Virus record (IMG/VR): IMGVR_UViG_3300037427_002936
Location: 1 to 28,366 of that record
Length of the DNA: 28,366 nucleotides
Origin: a virus
Strand: one strand, 5' to 3'
The translations under genes were made by a program, and so were the position numbers. The notes under the pieces were generated by a model. The model saw only the letters and a list, made by a program, of their open reading frames with translations. It was not told the DNA's origin and ran no database searches. Positions 15,147-28,018 of the stretch are shown one piece after another (position 1 is the stretch's first letter; each line of letters opens with the position of its first letter).

Positions 15147-15614
15147 ATGTCAATGAACACATTCGCTAAAAAATTCAGTATTCTATTAGAGCAAACACCG
15201 GATCCAGCCATCGAGGCTGAAGATCCAAGCGCAGAAGCGCTTCCTGTTGATCCAGGAGGAGATGAAGGTAATCCATTAGGTCTAGATCAAGGAACGCCGG
15301 CTGATTCCTTCGACGATGTACCGGACAATCCGGCGGTGGCGTTAAGACAGCAGCAGTACGGACAAACCATGGATACGCTCAGAGGTTGGGTTGATCAAGT
15401 CGAAGGATGGGTAGATCAACTTAACGGTCTAGACAGTAACAGTATTAATGCTCAACTAAATAAAGCAGACTGTGACAGTATTATGGCAGACGTTCAACGA
15501 AGTGAATCAAAAAAGATCTCGCGATTAGCTCAAGATCTTTCAAGTCTGTCAGAATCGCTTAAACAATATCTCTTATCTGCCGAACAAAAAGCAAATTCTA
15601 GGGAAACAATTTAA
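15147..15614 (+). CDS. Acidic virion-type protein with capsid-targeting-like leader
   Basis: 155 residues, family not recognised. The N-terminus MSMNTFAKKFSILLEQ is an amphipathic helix ending in L-L-E. Residues 17-65 are Pro/Asp/Gly/Glu-rich and disordered. Residues about 68-150 are helical with a repeated W-V-D-Q motif (RGWVDQVEGWVDQL) and a Ser/Leu-rich coiled coil. Its stop overlaps the start of the next gene (TAATG), so both are made together. A scaffold or packaged internal-protein role is inferred from the leader and acidic linker. Confidence 0.6.
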   Translation: MSMNTFAKKFSILLEQTPDPAIEAEDPSAEALPVDPGGDEGNPLGLDQGTPADSFDDVPDNPAVALRQQQYGQTMDTLRGWVDQVEGWVDQLNGLDSNSINAQLNKADCDSIMADVQRSESKKISRLAQDLSSLSESLKQYLLSAEQKANSRETI

Positions 15615-16612
15615 TGAAAAAACAAGATTATCAATTACTAGAGGAGGCTTACAGTGCCACTCAACCAGACCCTGGTTTAATCCTAGAATATCAGTTACAG
15701 GAGACAATTGATATTATCCGCGAAGGTATGTGGGACAGACTTAAGTCAGATGCCAGCGGGGCCATGGCCGGTGGTTTACGTAAAGGCGTTGGTACCGTAG
15801 GTAGAGCACTCACCGGAGGCCTAGGAGGTAAATGGAATCCCTTTAACAAGATGGTAGCAAAAGGCCGGCAAGCCGGACAGGAAGCAAGAGCGGCTTCTCT
15901 CGGTGGATCACATGCTAAGAAAATGACCGGGATAATGACGAAAATTAGTACTGATTTTGAGAAGGCTATTGATAGTTATATGAATGATATGCAAAAGCAG
16001 GGTATAATTCAACAAGGACAAGCTGCAAAACTAACCGGGGAGCTGAAAAATGAATTTCAGACAGCAATTCAAAACACTCAAACTAAGATTGACGGGCTCA
16101 CGACGCAATCAAAAGGATATACAGCAACTGATGCCGCTACTGGGAAAACGGTAGGTGGTTCTGATGTACAAACTGTCGGAGGACAAGCGCATGATTCAAC
16201 TGATACACCATATAAAGATCTAGGTACATCGGCCGTTAAGGCAGCCGGTGATGGATTGGACGCCGCACTTGCTGCTCCCGGGAAAGCACTCAACAAGGTC
16301 ACTCAAACCGCAGCAGACGCAACCAACTCTGTCTTCGGGAACACTACGACTGGGAAGGATAATATTCTAAAGAGAGCCAAAGATAAGTGGAACCAGGCTA
16401 GAAATGCACCGGTTCCTGAAGGTAGCGATGAGCCTTACGAAGAAGATGAAGAGCCTTACGAAGAGGCTGAAGAGGAGGAAAAGGAAGAAAACGAAGAAGT
16501 TGTTGAAGACAACCGGAATCCATTAGAGATTGAGCTTCCTTACACTACATTAAATGAGTCAAACACTCAGGATTATATAATGGATCGCGGATGGCGGTCA
16601 CGACAGTCCTAA
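15614..16612 (+). CDS. Large virion-type protein with capsid-targeting-like leader
   Basis: 332 residues, family not recognised. The N-terminus MKKQDYQLLEEAYSATQ is nearly the same as the leaders of the genes at 26919 and 27350 (E-A-Y-x-A/S). Further L/I-x-E sites fall within the next 25 residues (LILE, LQE, IRE), so the propeptide could be trimmed in steps. Residues 45-110 are Gly/Ala/Lys-rich and basic, 110-160 helical and 160-260 Ala/Thr/Gly-rich. Residues 272-298 are a Glu-rich block with a repeated EPYEE. The C-terminus is GWRSRQS. The charge layout would suit a DNA-associated or ejected internal protein. The 3' end overlaps the convergent primase gene by 15 bases. Confidence 0.6.
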   Translation: MKKQDYQLLEEAYSATQPDPGLILEYQLQETIDIIREGMWDRLKSDASGAMAGGLRKGVGTVGRALTGGLGGKWNPFNKMVAKGRQAGQEARAASLGGSHAKKMTGIMTKISTDFEKAIDSYMNDMQKQGIIQQGQAAKLTGELKNEFQTAIQNTQTKIDGLTTQSKGYTATDAATGKTVGGSDVQTVGGQAHDSTDTPYKDLGTSAVKAAGDGLDAALAAPGKALNKVTQTAADATNSVFGNTTTGKDNILKRAKDKWNQARNAPVPEGSDEPYEEDEEPYEEAEEEEKEENEEVVEDNRNPLEIELPYTTLNESNTQDYIMDRGWRSRQS

Positions 16613-20497: not shown

Positions 20498-21056
20498 TTT
20501 GCGCAGATTTAGATGTTTTAATTACCACTTCAGATGTATCTTCAAGGAGCTGATCTATAATCTTATTATGTAATTCTGTTATTGAATCTAGACGGTCGGT
20601 TATCTTGTTAAAATGTATGTGTAGTTTATCTTCTAGATCGTTTATTCTTTGAATAAGCCCTTTCGAAATTTCATTTAAATGACCTTCATCTATAATAGGT
20701 GGTGCTATATGCACCGGAGGAGCTGTGGGCGGTGCCTTCGGTTCTGGTGCCTGTACAGGTTCTGGTGGTGATGGTATAACTTCTGGTGCAGGAGCTTCAG
20801 ATCCGGGAGGATGTGCGACGGGCGGAGGTGGAGGATTTTGATTGGTTGCAGCTATACTCCTAACAACTCGGGGATCCAATCGCTGGGCTCGGCCGTTGCT
20901 ATCACCGATTGTATGATGATCTACAGTTGTTAATTCAGAGCCTACTGTATTGAATAACTGAGCAACTGCTAAGGTGTCGTTCGATCTCGCGTTTTCATGA
21001 TCCCGGTTCGCATAAGGATTGTCCTTCACCGGGGCGGGCTGGTTTTTAGTCGTCAT
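20481..21056 (-). CDS. Proline-rich, coiled-coil protein between gp32 and the clamp
   Basis: 191 residues, no recognised family. Residues 1-70 are polar. Residues 74-122 are extremely Pro-rich, starting with PPPPP at 75-79 and continuing with APEP/PSPP-type repeats. Residues 123-175 form a strong amphipathic coiled coil (heptad-spaced Ile/Leu in LIQRINDLEDKLHIHF and SITELHNKIIDQLLED). This is the layout of an extended linker plus oligomerisation domain. It overlaps gp32 (11 bases) and the clamp (17 bases), so its amount is tied to both. It might bridge gp32 and clamp functions; that is inferred from coupling only. Confidence 0.55.
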   Translation of the reverse strand: MTTKNQPAPVKDNPYANRDHENARSNDTLAVAQLFNTVGSELTTVDHHTIGDSNGRAQRLDPRVVRSIAATNQNPPPPPVAHPPGSEAPAPEVIPSPPEPVQAPEPKAPPTAPPVHIAPPIIDEGHLNEISKGLIQRINDLEDKLHIHFNKITDRLDSITELHNKIIDQLLEDTSEVVIKTSKSAQSEDTD

Positions 21057-21942
21057 CTAAGCCTTGGAGGAGTTCCTTAATCTTATCATCATCCAACGGT
21101 GAATCATCTTCATCCTCATTCGGAGAAGCTGTCTTCTCTTCTGATTTGGAGAAGTCCATCGGAACTTCTTCCTCGAGATCTGAATCTGTAGTACTGCTAC
21201 TAGTCACCGGTGCAGCCGCCGGGGTTTCATCGACCGCGCCGCTATTGCAATAATAATGCTCATTGAGCAACGATACTAGATCGTCGTAAGGCTTCACCGG
21301 GAGAACAGTGGTTAAATCTTGAGTCGATTCATAGATATCCTTAATCTTATCAACTTCAAGCCCGGTAGGTCCAGGAGTGAGAAACCTACTAGAAACGTAG
21401 GTCGGGTACTCACCTTGACTGTCAACCTTAACTCGGAAACTGCAACCATTCTCAGTCAGGTCAAAGATCTTCGCGCCAAATTCCTTAGCATCTTCTCCTT
21501 CGATCGCCGCCATGATAATCTTATGTAGTTGTTTGCCGAACCGGAGGACCTTTACCTTTCCGTTATTATCGGAATCGGTTGGGTCATTAACTACATAGAC
21601 GTTAACCAACCATTTCTCACTCCGGTAAATCGCTTTTGCGCGTTCTTTCTCAGCGACTGAACCGAACCGGGAATCCTTATAACGAGCTTCACCGATCGGG
21701 TCTCTCTCACCAATAGTCATCGGACTAACAGCCGAAGTATATTGCCCGGTCGCGAAGGACTCCCAACCGTACACATAATAATGATGAAAAGTTTTTGATG
21801 GATCCGATGTATTAGGTAATAACCTAACCTCGTAAGAATTTCCCGCGGTTGTCCTAAGAATGTCTGCTGCTCCGCGAGGCGCTGCTTCTTTATTTAACGC
21901 ATCTTTAATTGCGTCGAACATTGATGGTGTAAATGTACTCAT
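21046..21942 (-). CDS. gp32: Single-stranded DNA binding protein (gp32-like), without zinc ligands
   Basis: 298 residues; T4 gp32 has 301. It coats single-stranded DNA in replication, recombination and repair. The N-terminus is basic and helical, as used for cooperative binding. The OB-fold core is recognisable from WLVNVYVVNDPTDSDNNGKV and KVLRFGKQLHKIIMAAIE (T4: '[30 protein letters not shown]'). The C-terminus is Ser/Asp/Glu-rich, ending in DDDKIKELLQGLDDD, the typical acidic protein-interaction tail. T4 gp32 binds zinc with His and three Cys in the core; here that region has no cysteine, so the zinc site is lost. It has its own sigma70-like promoter. Confidence 0.9.
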   Translation of the reverse strand: MSTFTPSMFDAIKDALNKEAAPRGAADILRTTAGNSYEVRLLPNTSDPSKTFHHYYVYGWESFATGQYTSAVSPMTIGERDPIGEARYKDSRFGSVAEKERAKAIYRSEKWLVNVYVVNDPTDSDNNGKVKVLRFGKQLHKIIMAAIEGEDAKEFGAKIFDLTENGCSFRVKVDSQGEYPTYVSSRFLTPGPTGLEVDKIKDIYESTQDLTTVLPVKPYDDLVSLLNEHYYCNSGAVDETPAAAPVTSSSTTDSDLEEEVPMDFSKSEEKTASPNEDEDDSPLDDDKIKELLQGLDDD

Positions 21943-23253: not shown

Positions 23254-24597
23254 TCAACCGGCTATGTCATCTGCTAACATGGATAATGTACTTGTCGCGG
23301 CATTTAAATCACAATCCCCTGTTAGTATATCATCCTCTGATAAGCTCAATGTATTGTAATCGACTCTCATCGACGTACTACCGAAATTTGGACCGAACCG
23401 GTTCTTCATAACACCTAATTTTATTAAGCCGAGTTCCGCGTCTTCTTCCTCTTGCCATAGACTGAAGATTGCATCTGCTGTGGCTGCTAGACCTATACTC
23501 TCACTAATCGTATCTAGACCTGGGTTTACTTCATCATAACCGGAGCGATTTAACTGTGTTGCGGTTATGATCGGACAGTTAAAAACGTAGCTCAGTGCGC
23601 GGAGTTGTTCGGTATTGTCTTTAATTCTCTCATATGAGTTTCCGCTAAACGTTGATCTCAGTAGATTGACATAATCAACGACTATCATGTCTAGTTTTAC
23701 GCCCTGGTCTATAATCTTCTTAATAAATGCCTTCAAATGGTTGCATGTGATAGTACTAGGAGGGAATTCTTTGATTAGCAAACGACTATTAGAATTATTT
23801 TGCTTATATACATTTAACTGGTCTTTGAGTTCGTCAGTTCTCATATGAAGCTCGTTCATAGGAATCTTTGTCACGTCGCTGCTTACTCTTCTCGCGTAAA
23901 TCATCTCCGGCATTTCTAGCGATACCAATAATACCGTTTTATCTTGTTCACAGACGTTAACCGCGATGTTCGCAAGGAAGATGGATTTACCGATATTAGT
24001 TTCGCCGGCGAAGATATATATCGATTTTCCTTTCTCCAAGAATCCGCCTCCTAACTTATTATCTAACCATTCCCATTTAGATGGAATAGTTGCTTCAGAC
24101 GTTGTTAGATCGCGTATCTGACGGTCGATGTCTTCGAAGTAATCTAGACCCATATCAGTCGATAAATTGACGTTACATGCATCTTCAAATTTTCGTAATA
24201 TTTCTGATGTATCTATATCAGAACCGCTACATTCATCTGCAACACTCAATAAAGTATGATACACACCTCTCTCCTTTAAAAATTGTTCCGTATTCTCTGT
24301 AAGTTCATCTCTGTTGAGCTTTTGATCTATATTATCAAATTTTTGAACGACGTTTTTAAAGCTGTCTTTTAAGTCCTGTGTCGTTAAATATGCCTTTATC
24401 TCAGTAACCGTAGGTACAGTCGATCGCTCTGTATAATAATCACATATAAGCTTTACAATATTTCCAATATCCTTATCATTAAAGTACGTTGGCTTAATAT
24501 AGTCAATTACAGAAGCCAGATAAGCTTCATCTGTAAGAATACCAAAAGCTATTATAGCTTCATAGTAGTCCCAGTCAATCTTTTTAGTCTGTTCCAT
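23254..24597 (-). CDS. gp41: Replicative DNA helicase (gp41-like, DnaB family)
   Basis: 447 residues; T4 gp41 has 475. It is a hexameric 5'-3' helicase that works with the primase. The N-terminal helical domain (1-150) is followed by a RecA-like motor. Walker A is GETNIGKS (198-205), followed by SLEMPE (226-231), Walker B MIVVDY (304-309) and the sensor segment TATQLNRSG (345-353). The start overlaps the glycosyltransferase-like gene by 14 bases, so the two are coupled. Confidence 0.95.
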   Translation of the reverse strand: MEQTKKIDWDYYEAIIAFGILTDEAYLASVIDYIKPTYFNDKDIGNIVKLICDYYTERSTVPTVTEIKAYLTTQDLKDSFKNVVQKFDNIDQKLNRDELTENTEQFLKERGVYHTLLSVADECSGSDIDTSEILRKFEDACNVNLSTDMGLDYFEDIDRQIRDLTTSEATIPSKWEWLDNKLGGGFLEKGKSIYIFAGETNIGKSIFLANIAVNVCEQDKTVLLVSLEMPEMIYARRVSSDVTKIPMNELHMRTDELKDQLNVYKQNNSNSRLLIKEFPPSTITCNHLKAFIKKIIDQGVKLDMIVVDYVNLLRSTFSGNSYERIKDNTEQLRALSYVFNCPIITATQLNRSGYDEVNPGLDTISESIGLAATADAIFSLWQEEEDAELGLIKLGVMKNRFGPNFGSTSMRVDYNTLSLSEDDILTGDCDLNAATSTLSMLADDIAG

Positions 24598-25288
24598 ACA
24601 ATTCTAAGAATTTCTTTTGAGACTCTTGAAATGATTCGTCCCAGTAATCTTGTAATCCGGGCGATGAATGGACAACCCATATCGGATATACACCTAGTTT
24701 GAGCTTCTTGGTATTAGCATCAATACATGACGCAATATCATAGTGATGGAATGTGAAACTCTCATTAAATTTCCAATCTACATCTATTGCTCTCTGTAGA
24801 TTAACTGCTAAGAAGAGCCCGTCCAGTACCAAACATCGTTCCGGTGACGGGCCAAAACAATTCGCTGAAACGCGGGCCGAATCCGGGAGGTTATCTGCAG
24901 GATGAACTACCGTACCAAATTTTGAACTAGACATTAAATGCCATAACGCTGGCTTCTTAATTGATATATCCCGGCCACCAGCGAGACCAACAATATCGAA
25001 TCCGTATCCTCCTTCATCTCGCATTGCATATCCAATTTTACTAAAACATGCAGAGTCATCTATATAAACATCATCATGAATAAACAAAACAACGTCATGT
25101 TTTGCCAGTGTTTCTTTATTTAGATGCTTATTATACAGCTCAGGTAGACCGGTCTTATTATCTTCATACATTTCTAGCTTATAAGACTTCTTAGCTAAAT
25201 CAGTCTGCGTTAATGAACTATAAAGCCGGGTATCCTCTTTCTTCCCTTTGGTTGCGCTTACTATTAATACAGGTTTTGGTTTCTTCAT
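24584..25288 (-). CDS. Glycosyltransferase-like protein (GT-A fold)
   Basis: 234 residues. It begins with a strand and loop (VLIVSATKGK) and has a metal-binding-type motif VLFIHDDVYID (67-77, DxD-like). A later part has LDGLFLAVNLQRAIDVDW, then FHHYDIASCIDA, as in small GT-2-like glycosyltransferases. It probably transfers a sugar from a nucleotide-sugar to an acceptor that is not identifiable from sequence: phage DNA, a virion protein or a cell-surface polymer. It is coupled to the helicase gene (14-base overlap) and shares the operon with queC and gat, which makes DNA a reasonable candidate acceptor but does not prove it. Confidence 0.7.
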   Translation of the reverse strand: MKKPKPVLIVSATKGKKEDTRLYSSLTQTDLAKKSYKLEMYEDNKTGLPELYNKHLNKETLAKHDVVLFIHDDVYIDDSACFSKIGYAMRDEGGYGFDIVGLAGGRDISIKKPALWHLMSSSKFGTVVHPADNLPDSARVSANCFGPSPERCLVLDGLFLAVNLQRAIDVDWKFNESFTFHHYDIASCIDANTKKLKLGVYPIWVVHSSPGLQDYWDESFQESQKKFLELYGTD

Positions 25289-25306: not shown

Positions 25307-25504
25307 TTACTTATCAAGAGTATTTTTTGTGCAACGTCTATCATATATTCCTAACCAGCATATAAATGCTACAAGCAGACTGAAAAAGGCTCCAGAGGAA
25401 CCTCCTAGGGCTTGAAGAAAAGCTAGGATTATATTCAAAAAGCATAAGCATATACATAGACGTCCTCGATTGGTTAATTTATTCCATAATAATGTCATCT
25501 TCAT
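25307..25504 (-). CDS. Small two-helix membrane protein
   Basis: 65 residues with two hydrophobic segments (about 16-34 and 38-54), separated by a short Gly/Ser turn, and a basic C-terminus. It is Cys-rich (five cysteines). It sits between gat and the glycosyltransferase-like gene with short gaps. No family recognised; small membrane proteins in phages are often inhibitors or anchors, but that is not established here. Confidence 0.5.
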   Translation of the reverse strand: MKMTLLWNKLTNRGRLCICLCFLNIILAFLQALGGSSGAFFSLLVAFICWLGIYDRRCTKNTLDK

Positions 25505-25514
25505 ATAACTGCAA

Positions 25515-26171
25515 CTACATAAAAAATTGAGTTGATGGTTGAAATTTTCCGGAAATAGCGAGGCCTTCGGGAGAGAGACAATATATATTACCTTCCACTA
25601 GGGAGGTTTTAGCTCTATTTGTCTTTACTGATGTAAAGATCTGCATATCATCATCCGTATATAACGTACATCCATTTCTAATAACGTAGGTTTGAGAACT
25701 ATATTTACTGTATATCCAGCAGCTGAAAATACCTTTCAGCTTGTTACATACTTCCTCAATCGCTATAATATCATCTCCTACATAAAGATAGTCTAACAGT
25801 TTCGGTATCACTTCACTATCAACTACAACATCTTCATTAAAATACTCTTGAGATAATTCGTTATGATTCTCCAAGACTCCGTTATGAGCGACTACGAAAT
25901 TACCACAATTGAACGGATGGGATGTAATTGGTTTAAATTTTCTCTGTGCTGACGTAGGTGCTTGTGTGTGTCCTAGGTATGTATTGTATTGTAATGTATC
26001 CTTCCATGCATACTCTCCAGTCAAATTAAATTCCCCGGATCCTTTTCTTACATACGTTTCTCCATTCTTCTTAATATAATAGAATCCATGTGCGAAATTG
26101 CCACGTTCTTTATTTCGAGAATATAATATCTCAAAATCGTGAAAATTAGTAGAGCCAAATATTCCGCACAT
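25515..26171 (-). CDS. gat: Class II glutamine amidotransferase domain protein (Gat)
   Basis: 218 residues, a single Ntn-type GATase domain. The nucleophile is Cys2 in MCGIFG, exposed once Met is removed. Other active-site motifs: GHTQAPTSAQR (67-77), VVAHNG (93-98) with the oxyanion Asn97-Gly98, and VDSE (117-120). It hydrolyses glutamine to ammonia and hands it to an acceptor domain. No synthase domain is fused here. It follows queC with a TAATG overlap and a good GAGG ribosome site. In some archaea, and reportedly in phage 9g, a Gat domain fused to QueC makes an amidated 7-deazaguanine (archaeosine-type). Here the two are separate but coupled, suggesting the same job. Confidence 0.8.
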   Translation of the reverse strand: MCGIFGSTNFHDFEILYSRNKERGNFAHGFYYIKKNGETYVRKGSGEFNLTGEYAWKDTLQYNTYLGHTQAPTSAQRKFKPITSHPFNCGNFVVAHNGVLENHNELSQEYFNEDVVVDSEVIPKLLDYLYVGDDIIAIEEVCNKLKGIFSCWIYSKYSSQTYVIRNGCTLYTDDDMQIFTSVKTNRAKTSLVEGNIYCLSPEGLAISGKFQPSTQFFM

Positions 26172-26878
26172 TACAGCACCTCACATTCGGCAGATATCCA
26201 CGGTATATCCTTACGACTATATGGTATAGGATCAACATATCCGGCGTCGAGAAAGCCTTTAATCCTGGAACTACAAGCCGGGCAGAAGCCACATGCCTCC
26301 TCTTTTCCCTCGTAACATGTCCATGTATCTTTAAAATCGACGTTCAGTTCTACACCTAATTCAACAATCTCTTTCTTGGACTTATCAATTAAAGGAGCTT
26401 CAATCGCTACACAATCTCTTCGATTTAATTTATTTACATTATTAATTGCTTCTAAGAACTCCACACTACCGTCCCAATACCCGGCTTGGCTATCCACTAG
26501 AGCAGAGCCATGGAACACTGTACTGGCACCGATCGACTCCGCATATGCAGTACATATTGATAACATCATCATGTTTCTATTAGGTACATAATTAACTGTT
26601 TGCGGGTCTCCTAGGATATCTTTTGTTTTCGCGACCTCTATATCGTTATTAGTAAGAGCACTGGTTGTGACAATATCCTTGAAGAAAGATAAGTCGAGAA
26701 TCTTATATGAATCTGTTATATCTTTAGTTTGCTTTTGAGCACATAGTAGTTCCTGTAACAGGTGCTTTTGACCGTAATTAAAGCTTACAGCATGGACAGA
26801 AAATCCTTTAGATTTCGCTAAATGTAATATGACGGTAGAGTCTAATCCTCCACTTATTGGTACAACACACTTCTCCAT
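26171..26878 (-). CDS. queC: QueC, 7-cyano-7-deazaguanine (preQ0) synthase
   Basis: 235 residues. It converts 7-carboxy-7-deazaguanine to preQ0 using ATP and ammonia. The ATP pyrophosphatase P-loop is SGGLDST (9-15). FNYGQ (33-37), YVPNRNM (97-103) and GSALVDSQAGYWDG are family signatures, and zinc ligands are C188, C196, C199 and C202. It is the first gene of a long operon that also has gat, a glycosyltransferase-like protein, helicase and DHH phosphoesterase. It has its own sigma70-like promoter. FolE, QueD, QueE and the DNA-inserting enzyme DpdA are not in the window. Confidence 0.95.
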   Translation of the reverse strand: MEKCVVPISGGLDSTVILHLAKSKGFSVHAVSFNYGQKHLLQELLCAQKQTKDITDSYKILDLSFFKDIVTTSALTNNDIEVAKTKDILGDPQTVNYVPNRNMMMLSICTAYAESIGASTVFHGSALVDSQAGYWDGSVEFLEAINNVNKLNRRDCVAIEAPLIDKSKKEIVELGVELNVDFKDTWTCYEGKEEACGFCPACSSRIKGFLDAGYVDPIPYSRKDIPWISAECEVL

Positions 26879-26918: not shown

Positions 26919-27353
26919 ATGAATGATAAAGATTCAAAATTAATTTATGAGGCATATGGATCAGCGTATGATCATGGAATGGACCTGAAAACCGGAGGAT
27001 TTTTCGGAGACGGGACAGAAGAAGAGGTCCTAGAGATCACTTCTGCCGACGGTCTAGTGAAAGTCCTAGCGGACGAATTTGATATATACATAGCGGAGGA
27101 TGAGATTGATGAATTTTTGCGAGGGTGGAGAGATCAGGGCAGGATAGAGCAGTACGATGAGGACGGTATAATGAATCCTCAGAATCTAGCTAGAGCGAAA
27201 CAGTCAGCAGACGCGGCCAGACAGGACGGAGACATTGAAGGTGAAATGACTGCAGAGGAGGTCTTTGAGTTCTTGAAAAGGAAGCTTGACAAAGAACCAA
27301 ACAAATTAAAACGGGTTTGGCGTACTATAAAGCATAAATATTTAAAACTATGA
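26919..27353 (+). CDS. Virion-type protein with capsid-targeting-like leader
   Basis: 144 residues, family not recognised. The N-terminus MNDKDSKLIYEAYGSAYDHG carries an I-Y-E / A junction like a gp21-type cleavage site. The leader closely matches those at 15614 and 27350. The body is acidic with helices (ADEFDIYIAEDEIDEFLRG) and a C-terminal basic segment (RVWRTIKHKYLKL). It overlaps the next gene by four bases (ATGA), so the two are made together. AAGAG lies directly before the ATG, and a TTAAGTA sequence nine bases upstream is a poor late box. It probably encodes a packaged internal protein, by inference. Confidence 0.65.
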   Translation: MNDKDSKLIYEAYGSAYDHGMDLKTGGFFGDGTEEEVLEITSADGLVKVLADEFDIYIAEDEIDEFLRGWRDQGRIEQYDEDGIMNPQNLARAKQSADAARQDGDIEGEMTAEEVFEFLKRKLDKEPNKLKRVWRTIKHKYLKL

Positions 27354-28018
27354 AGGATAAAGACACATACATGCTGATGGAAGCCTATAGTGCTAGCCGT
27401 ACAAATGGAAAGCTTCTTGAAGAAGGATTACAGGAATTTATTAAAAATAAGATCGAAGGAGCTCTAGCTGGTTTCAAGCAATGGCTAGAAGGAGAAGGTC
27501 AACAAATACTTAAACAGAAAGGAATTCTTCAAGAAGACTTCACATTACAAGAGAGTGCAGGAGATATAGTCAAGATTCTAGGCGTTGGAGGAATAGCCGC
27601 GGCACTCGCTATTTATCTCGGTATGAATCCAGAAGTTGTTCAAACAGCCCTGGAGTTCTTTCCGGATTTGATGGATAATATCTCTAATATGTTTGGTGGT
27701 GCAGAAGCCGGAGTGGAAGGTGCAACTGGAGCAGAAGGAACACCTGAATTACAAGAACCTACTAGACCGACTGCTGCAGACACTCAACAAATGCAGCAAA
27801 GTATGAACAATACCACTGTTGATTCACATGCACCACCGGAAATGGTTGATCAATGGAACCAAATGAATCCAACGGATGCACAGAATGCTAGGGATACTTA
27901 CGAAACATACAATGATGGAGAAGGCGGAATCTTTCGACATGAACCTCCAACCTTTGGAAAACCAGAGACTGGATGGCAACCACCGGCTGGTTGGGTAGAT
28001 CCTAGAATTGGAAAGTAA
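27350..28018 (+). CDS. Virion-type protein with capsid-targeting-like leader and hydrophobic segment
   Basis: 222 residues, family not recognised. The N-terminus MKDKDTYMLMEAYSASR matches the leader type (L-M-E / A). Several more L/I-x-E sites follow (LEE, LQE, LQE, LQE) within 60 residues. A hydrophobic helix follows at about 74-94 (VKILGVGGIAAALAIYLG), possibly membrane-active. The C-terminal half is Pro/Gln/Asn/Gly-rich. A packaged, ejected protein that meets the host membrane would fit, but this is inference. It is coupled to the 26919 gene and ends directly against the convergent UvsX-like gene. Confidence 0.65.
   Translation: MKDKDTYMLMEAYSASRTNGKLLEEGLQEFIKNKIEGALAGFKQWLEGEGQQILKQKGILQEDFTLQESAGDIVKILGVGGIAAALAIYLGMNPEVVQTALEFFPDLMDNISNMFGGAEAGVEGATGAEGTPELQEPTRPTAADTQQMQQSMNNTTVDSHAPPEMVDQWNQMNPTDAQNARDTYETYNDGEGGIFRHEPPTFGKPETGWQPPAGWVDPRIGK

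Follow-up and report, generated by a model that had tools for sequence, protein, structure and literature searches.

The adjacent genes queC and gat (positions 25515-26878, minus strand) of a virus record of 28,366 bases (the window, meaning the whole stretch of DNA analyzed here) probably encode the step of a phage 7-deazaguanine pathway in which preQ0 is made; Gat would feed ammonia to QueC, and the resulting preQ0 would be carried on to a preQ1-type base that is placed in the phage DNA and protects it. The evidence comes from the two proteins and their conserved coupling, from pathway genes on related contigs, and from phages with the same gene pair whose DNA composition has been published.

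Organization of the queC-gat Locus

The gene content of the window (a helicase, a gp32-like single-strand DNA-binding protein, and others) marks it as a fragment of a T4-like myovirus. Within it, queC (26171-26878, minus strand) encodes a 7-cyano-7-deazaguanine (preQ0) synthase of 235 amino acids, and gat (25515-26171, minus strand) encodes a stand-alone class II (Ntn) glutamine amidotransferase-type protein of 218 amino acids. Both are intact reading frames, and the stop codon of queC overlaps the start codon of gat by one base in the string TAATG (26169-26173, minus strand), just as a first-pass annotation of the sequence had described. The pair also heads a replication-gene run, as that annotation stated: on the minus strand, queC and gat are followed by a 65-amino acid ORF (25307-25504; a small ORF occupies the same place in some relatives), a putative glycosyltransferase-like gene (24584-25288; PF13712, with the order kept in relatives), a DnaB-type replicative helicase (23254-24597; PF03796, 5e-28; phrog_19, 4e-76), a DHH protein, and the gp32-like single-strand DNA-binding protein (SSB; 21046-21942; PF08804, 4.5e-16). 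A sigma70-like promoter of its own had been ascribed to this run. The string itself, TTGAAT-N17-TATAAT, is present upstream of queC in the 40-bp divergent gap (26915-26887, minus strand), but a scan of the region found 5 strings of this kind against 6.6 expected from shuffles, which is not above chance, and the promoter is therefore unproven.

Elsewhere in the window, three plus-strand genes (15614-16612, 26919-27353, and 27350-28018) encode proteins with a common N-terminal motif like KDxxLxxEAYSA; judged by sequence only, this motif is reminiscent of the capsid-targeting leader of T4-like internal proteins.

The QueC and Gat Proteins

By its motifs and profile matches, QueC is a canonical preQ0 synthase, with predicted CDG to preQ0 activity, which bears out the original naming of the gene. 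It matches PF06508 (Pfam, E = 4e-57) and, over its full length, TIGR00364, for which the score of 175.6 bits exceeds the equivalog cut-off of 150.3. The protein carries the motifs SGGLDS (residues 9-14), YGQKH (35-39), and VPNRN (98-102), as well as four zinc cysteines (CYEGKEEACGFCPAC; 188-202), and its PDB matches are the QueC structures 2pg3 and 3bl5. It deviates in that the YPDC motif reads YWDG (with the aromatic residue retained), the zinc spacing is 7 residues instead of 8, and the Glu following YxQxH is displaced by one. The nitrogen donor of QueC is ammonia (PMC13329287).

Gat matches GATase_6 (E = 2e-10) and GATase_7, and the best fold matches of its AlphaFold2 model (mean pLDDT 91.7) are the glutaminase domains of GlmS and PurF. 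It has the features of a class II enzyme, namely an Ntn fold, an N-terminal Cys, an Asn-Gly oxyanion hole, and an Asp. Among the residues singled out in the first-pass annotation, Cys2, Asn97, Gly98, and Asp118 are invariant across 35 aligned relatives, while Glu120 varies. Gat resembles the GlmS and PurF glutaminase domains in its Ntn fold, Cys nucleophile, Asn-Gly, and Asp, but it differs from them in standing alone, without a synthase domain, and in having Gln in place of an Arg. This Gln (Q70) is invariant in 35 of 35 split Gats. Of 83 comparison sequences, by contrast, 82 have Arg at the equivalent place, the fused Gats of phages 9g, Quinobequin-P09, and PhiXhv-16 among them. We take this Arg to be the residue that binds the glutamine carboxylate; in the alignment, it is absent from the Gat of the window and from all 35 split Gats. 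The substitution could mean that Gat uses another amide, and not free glutamine. An APT motif after this key position is common to fused and split Gats.

In a scan of genome contigs, the cellular relatives of the split Gat were mostly generic GlmS/PurF-type amidotransferases. The exception with respect to Q70 was one Flavobacterium-MAG contig, which encodes a Gat together with ORFs that, by sequence, resemble QueF, DpdA2, QueE, QueD, and QueC, and which is probably of phage origin.

The coupling of a class II glutaminase to a PP-loop synthetase is a familiar design, as in asparagine synthetase B. The likeliest candidate function of Gat is the supply of ammonia to QueC, a direction of flow that we infer. 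To our knowledge, the cellular source of the ammonia used by QueC is an open question.

Split queC-gat Pairs in Related Phages

A search of IMG/VR yielded 80 loci, which were sorted by custom HMMs into two groups. Group I comprises the kin of the window (about 50 loci, in the order QueC-Gat-glycosyltransferase-helicase-SSB), and throughout this group the same HMMs show the glycosyltransferase-like gene kept beside gat. In group II, QueE, FolE, and often DpdA2 or QueF adjoin queC-gat. The gene queC precedes gat on a single strand in all 66 of the 66 non-identical loci with both genes, and 18 of these 66 have the 1-bp overlap seen in the window; the order and overlap are conserved far beyond chance.

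The split pair was also located (by tblastn and record annotation) in Vibrio phages 1.081.O, 6E351A, KVP40, and nt-1, and in Pseudomonas phage pf16; in the KVP40 record, the gene after queC is annotated with a class II amidotransferase (PF00310) match. As in the window, these phages have queC and then gat, a stand-alone Gat with Q70, and a canonical QueC, and the four Vibrio phages share the 1-bp overlap. The difference lies in the surroundings: the pair is found inside a folE-dpdA2-queF cluster in 1.081.O, pf16, 6E351A, and KVP40, and inside a folE-dpdA2 cluster in nt-1 (with no QueF found within the genome stretches of nt-1 inspected), whereas among the kin of the window it stands at the head of the glycosyltransferase-helicase-SSB run, with the remaining pathway genes elsewhere in the genome, up to tens of kb off. 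A separate gat is a recurrent phage arrangement and not a curiosity. Some phages have QueC without Gat, and Gat is therefore not strictly needed.

The pair had originally been described as a split version of the fusion in phage 9g. The fused Gat-QueC (G+ synthase; 9g, Quinobequin-P09, and Crenarchaeota) does have in common with the split pair a class II Gat domain, a QueC domain, and the APT motif. However, the Gat-first fusion that defines the Gat-QueC archaeosine synthase is absent from the window, where the genes are separate and in reversed order, with QueC first; in addition, the split Gats have Q in place of R, QueF is present in the kin, and phages that have QueF and DpdA2 commonly carry the split pair. 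The description as a split 9g fusion is accordingly not supported.

No counterpart of the glycosyltransferase-like gene beside gat turned up among 50,697 records of isolate phages. This putative enzyme might possibly glycosylate the base. In a separate case, the locus L303:5173-8407 (Xanthomonas phage PhiXhv-16) contains a Gat-QueC fusion that is annotated as an aminotransferase, and then deacetylase and glycoside transferase genes, a neighborhood that again hints at sugar chemistry adjoining Gat-QueC.

Pathway Genes and a Compact TGT-Fold Protein

Neither the 28-kb window nor contig L002, which overlaps it (an estimated ∼33 kb combined), encodes FolE, QueD, QueE, QueF, or a DpdA, and no contig of the window phage's own with DpdA or QueF was among the matches listed for sample 3300031766. 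The longer group I contigs do carry FolE, QueD, and QueE, and all three are present on G027, whose Gat falls in the same clade as that of the window. More distant kin, namely group I contigs G001, G004, G006, and G024, encode a canonical QueF in which the ESKSMKLY motif is intact; we take this motif to mark the NADPH side of the nitrile reductase. The best match of this QueF is TIGR03138 (QueF), with a score below the cut-off of that model. In profile searches for which the positive control worked, DpdA2 and the ordinary tRNA-guanine transglycosylase (TGT; PF01702) were absent from the longer group I contigs.

These DpdA2 and PF01702 searches had missed a compact protein of ∼260 amino acids, encoded near folE or queF in the group II loci without DpdA2. 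The best fold matches of its model (pLDDT 93.4) are tRNA-guanine transglycosylases, and its invariant motifs (LDNS, PD, QG, and SxDxSN) presumably correspond to the TGT active-site motifs that they resemble. We propose this protein as a candidate enzyme for inserting the base into DNA, an activity predicted from its fold. It is like DpdA/DpdA2 and bacterial TGT in its TGT fold and in the aspartates of matching motifs; it differs from them in its length of ∼260 amino acids, in matching neither PF01702 nor the DpdA2 profile, and in occurring on related contigs rather than in the window. A profile built for it (A6) matched group I contigs G001, G004, G024, and G006 (the last partial, at the contig end), 2-3 kb from QueF, and the earlier argument from a group without DpdA to a nucleotide route was dropped. 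The gene is found together with a split Gat on single contigs (G047, G049, G050, and G053), and most of 80 further loci that carry it have QueF nearby. The first-pass annotation had named the lack of any DpdA-like gene as its refuting condition; the presence of such a gene on these related contigs favors DNA modification.

In a tree of Gat proteins, the Gat of the window and L086 form a pair (100/94), and both fall within a clade of 7 rows (100/99) to which L091, the Gat of contig G027, also belongs. Gats from contigs with the compact TGT-fold gene branch at several places around this clade, and DpdA-linked Gats are interleaved with others, in a tree where several deep forks are weak. From this placement, it is plausible that the phage of the window also has a compact TGT-fold gene, and we infer its distant pathway genes from those of its relatives.

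In Flavobacterium phage immuto, a homologue of the compact protein carries the label "DNA guanine transglycosylase"; those of Campylobacter CP220-like phages (positions 54675-55436 of FN667788.1, Campylobacter phage CP220, and its relatives) are labeled "hypothetical". A 2019 survey placed the Campylobacter phages reported to contain dADG among phages without DpdA, and the CP220 protein may be the inserting enzyme of these phages.

Several other genes accompany the pathway in relatives. Many contigs have a formyltransferase-domain gene next to those for the compact DpdA and QueF (e.g., L216:6231-6803, minus strand; L142:7529-8059, plus strand; L156:7287-7790, plus strand), hinting at a formylated preQ1 base. 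A kinase-like gene (AAA_28/deoxynucleoside-kinase-like) is close to queE (L193:5155-5913, plus strand; L203:3148-3894, minus strand). In one subclade, a GMP reductase-like gene (∼318 amino acids) lies between queC and gat (L192:2880-3836, minus strand, and the same place in L194, L197, L118, L208, L211, and L212). GMP reductase releases ammonia and lowers GMP, and either effect could be relevant to queC-gat.

Proposed Pathway and Probable Identity of the Base

In the pathway that we propose, QueC would convert 7-carboxy-7-deazaguanine, with ATP, to preQ0 as the last preQ0-forming step, while Gat, as a separate subunit or partner, would split glutamine or another amide and pass the ammonia to QueC. 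A phage QueF, most likely acting in the window's phage group, would then reduce preQ0 to preQ1, which would perhaps be formylated, and the compact TGT-fold (DpdA-like) enzyme would exchange guanine in the phage DNA for the modified base, shielding this DNA from restriction. Because the kin carry FolE, QueD, QueE, QueF, and a TGT-fold protein (the last two, QueF and the TGT-fold protein, in part of them) along with QueC and Gat, we judge a 7-deazaguanine in the DNA of this phage to be likely, and the general claim of a preQ0-derived base made in the first-pass annotation is supported by these pathway genes.

Which base this would be is indicated by phages with the same split pair. In virion DNA of 6E351A, 15% of dG is present as a 295-Da species, read by its authors as dPreQ1 (PMC12028318), and nt-1 virion DNA contains, per 10^6 nucleotides, 232 dPreQ0, 72 dADG, and 44 dG+ (PMC6884629). 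Because nt-1 also has ArcS (PMC6884629), its mixture is no clean test. As the split-pair phages give dPreQ1 (6E351A) or mainly dPreQ0 (nt-1), a split Gat alone does not mean dG+, and the end product is most likely a preQ1-type base rather than one of the archaeosine type.

The more specific prediction made at the outset, in which QueC and Gat behave as the fused Gat-QueC of 9g, preQ0 is amidated, and the phage DNA carries dG+, is thus not sustained, and we regard it as unlikely. The fused enzyme of 9g makes dG+ with DpdA (PMC6884629), the APT motif is common to fused and split Gats, traces of dG+ occur in the split-pair phage nt-1, and the phage of the window may lack QueF, which is absent from these 28 kb. 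Nevertheless, the main base of the split-pair phages with measured DNA is not dG+: in nt-1, dPreQ0 is fivefold above dG+, for which ArcS could account, and 6E351A has dPreQ1 with the same pair. The QueF of the kin retains its reductase motif, and the split Gats have Q where fused and cellular ones have R.

It is improbable that the two genes are instead auxiliary metabolic genes that boost preQ0 for queuosine in host tRNA while the phage DNA remains unmodified. This option has been raised for phages without DpdA (PMC6884629), and it would agree with a window that lacks DpdA and with a canonical QueC, which should yield free preQ0; however, QueF occurs in the kin, as does a TGT-fold protein that is shorter than the canonical TGT and has no PF01702 match, the pair sits in a replication-gene run, and the relatives with measured DNA are modified.

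More doubtful still is a nucleotide route, mentioned as a dGTP route for Campylobacter phages (PMC6884629), in which the polymerase would use a 7-deaza-dGTP and dG pools would be cut by GMP reductase, with a kinase encoded beside queE. Such a route would fit the GMP reductase-like gene that separates queC from gat in a subclade of relatives, and the kinase-like gene after queE, but GMP reductase is not encoded in the window, and a TGT-fold enzyme in the kin and in Campylobacter CP220-like phages lessens the need for it. Finally, QueC folds have been reused for protein conjugation in defense systems (QatC/Cap9; PMC13329287), but such a role in place of base synthesis is very improbable here, given that QueC passes TIGR00364 with the QatC model not among its matches, that the pairs of relatives sit in preQ0 clusters, and that no CD-NTase, QatA, QatB, or QatD was seen near the pair, where the surrounding genes are for replication and structure.

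Implications for Phage DNA Modification

The preQ1-type prediction that replaces dG+ is open to simple LC-MS. Likewise, dozens of phage lineages conserve an amidase partner as a separate protein, so that the ammonia source of QueC becomes directly testable, and the compact TGT-fold protein, "hypothetical" in Campylobacter CP220-like phages, is now tied to 7-deazaguanine pathways. A broader picture, which we offer only tentatively and at low confidence, is that a large group of mostly marine, uncultured T4-like phages has a hypermodified DNA guanine of the preQ1 type (formylated or glycosylated), made with a two-subunit QueC-Gat in which R-to-Q marks a change of substrate, and inserted by their own compact DpdA; in one subclade, a GMP reductase would have joined the queC-gat operon, and the base would be the substrate of the glycosyltransferase encoded next to gat.
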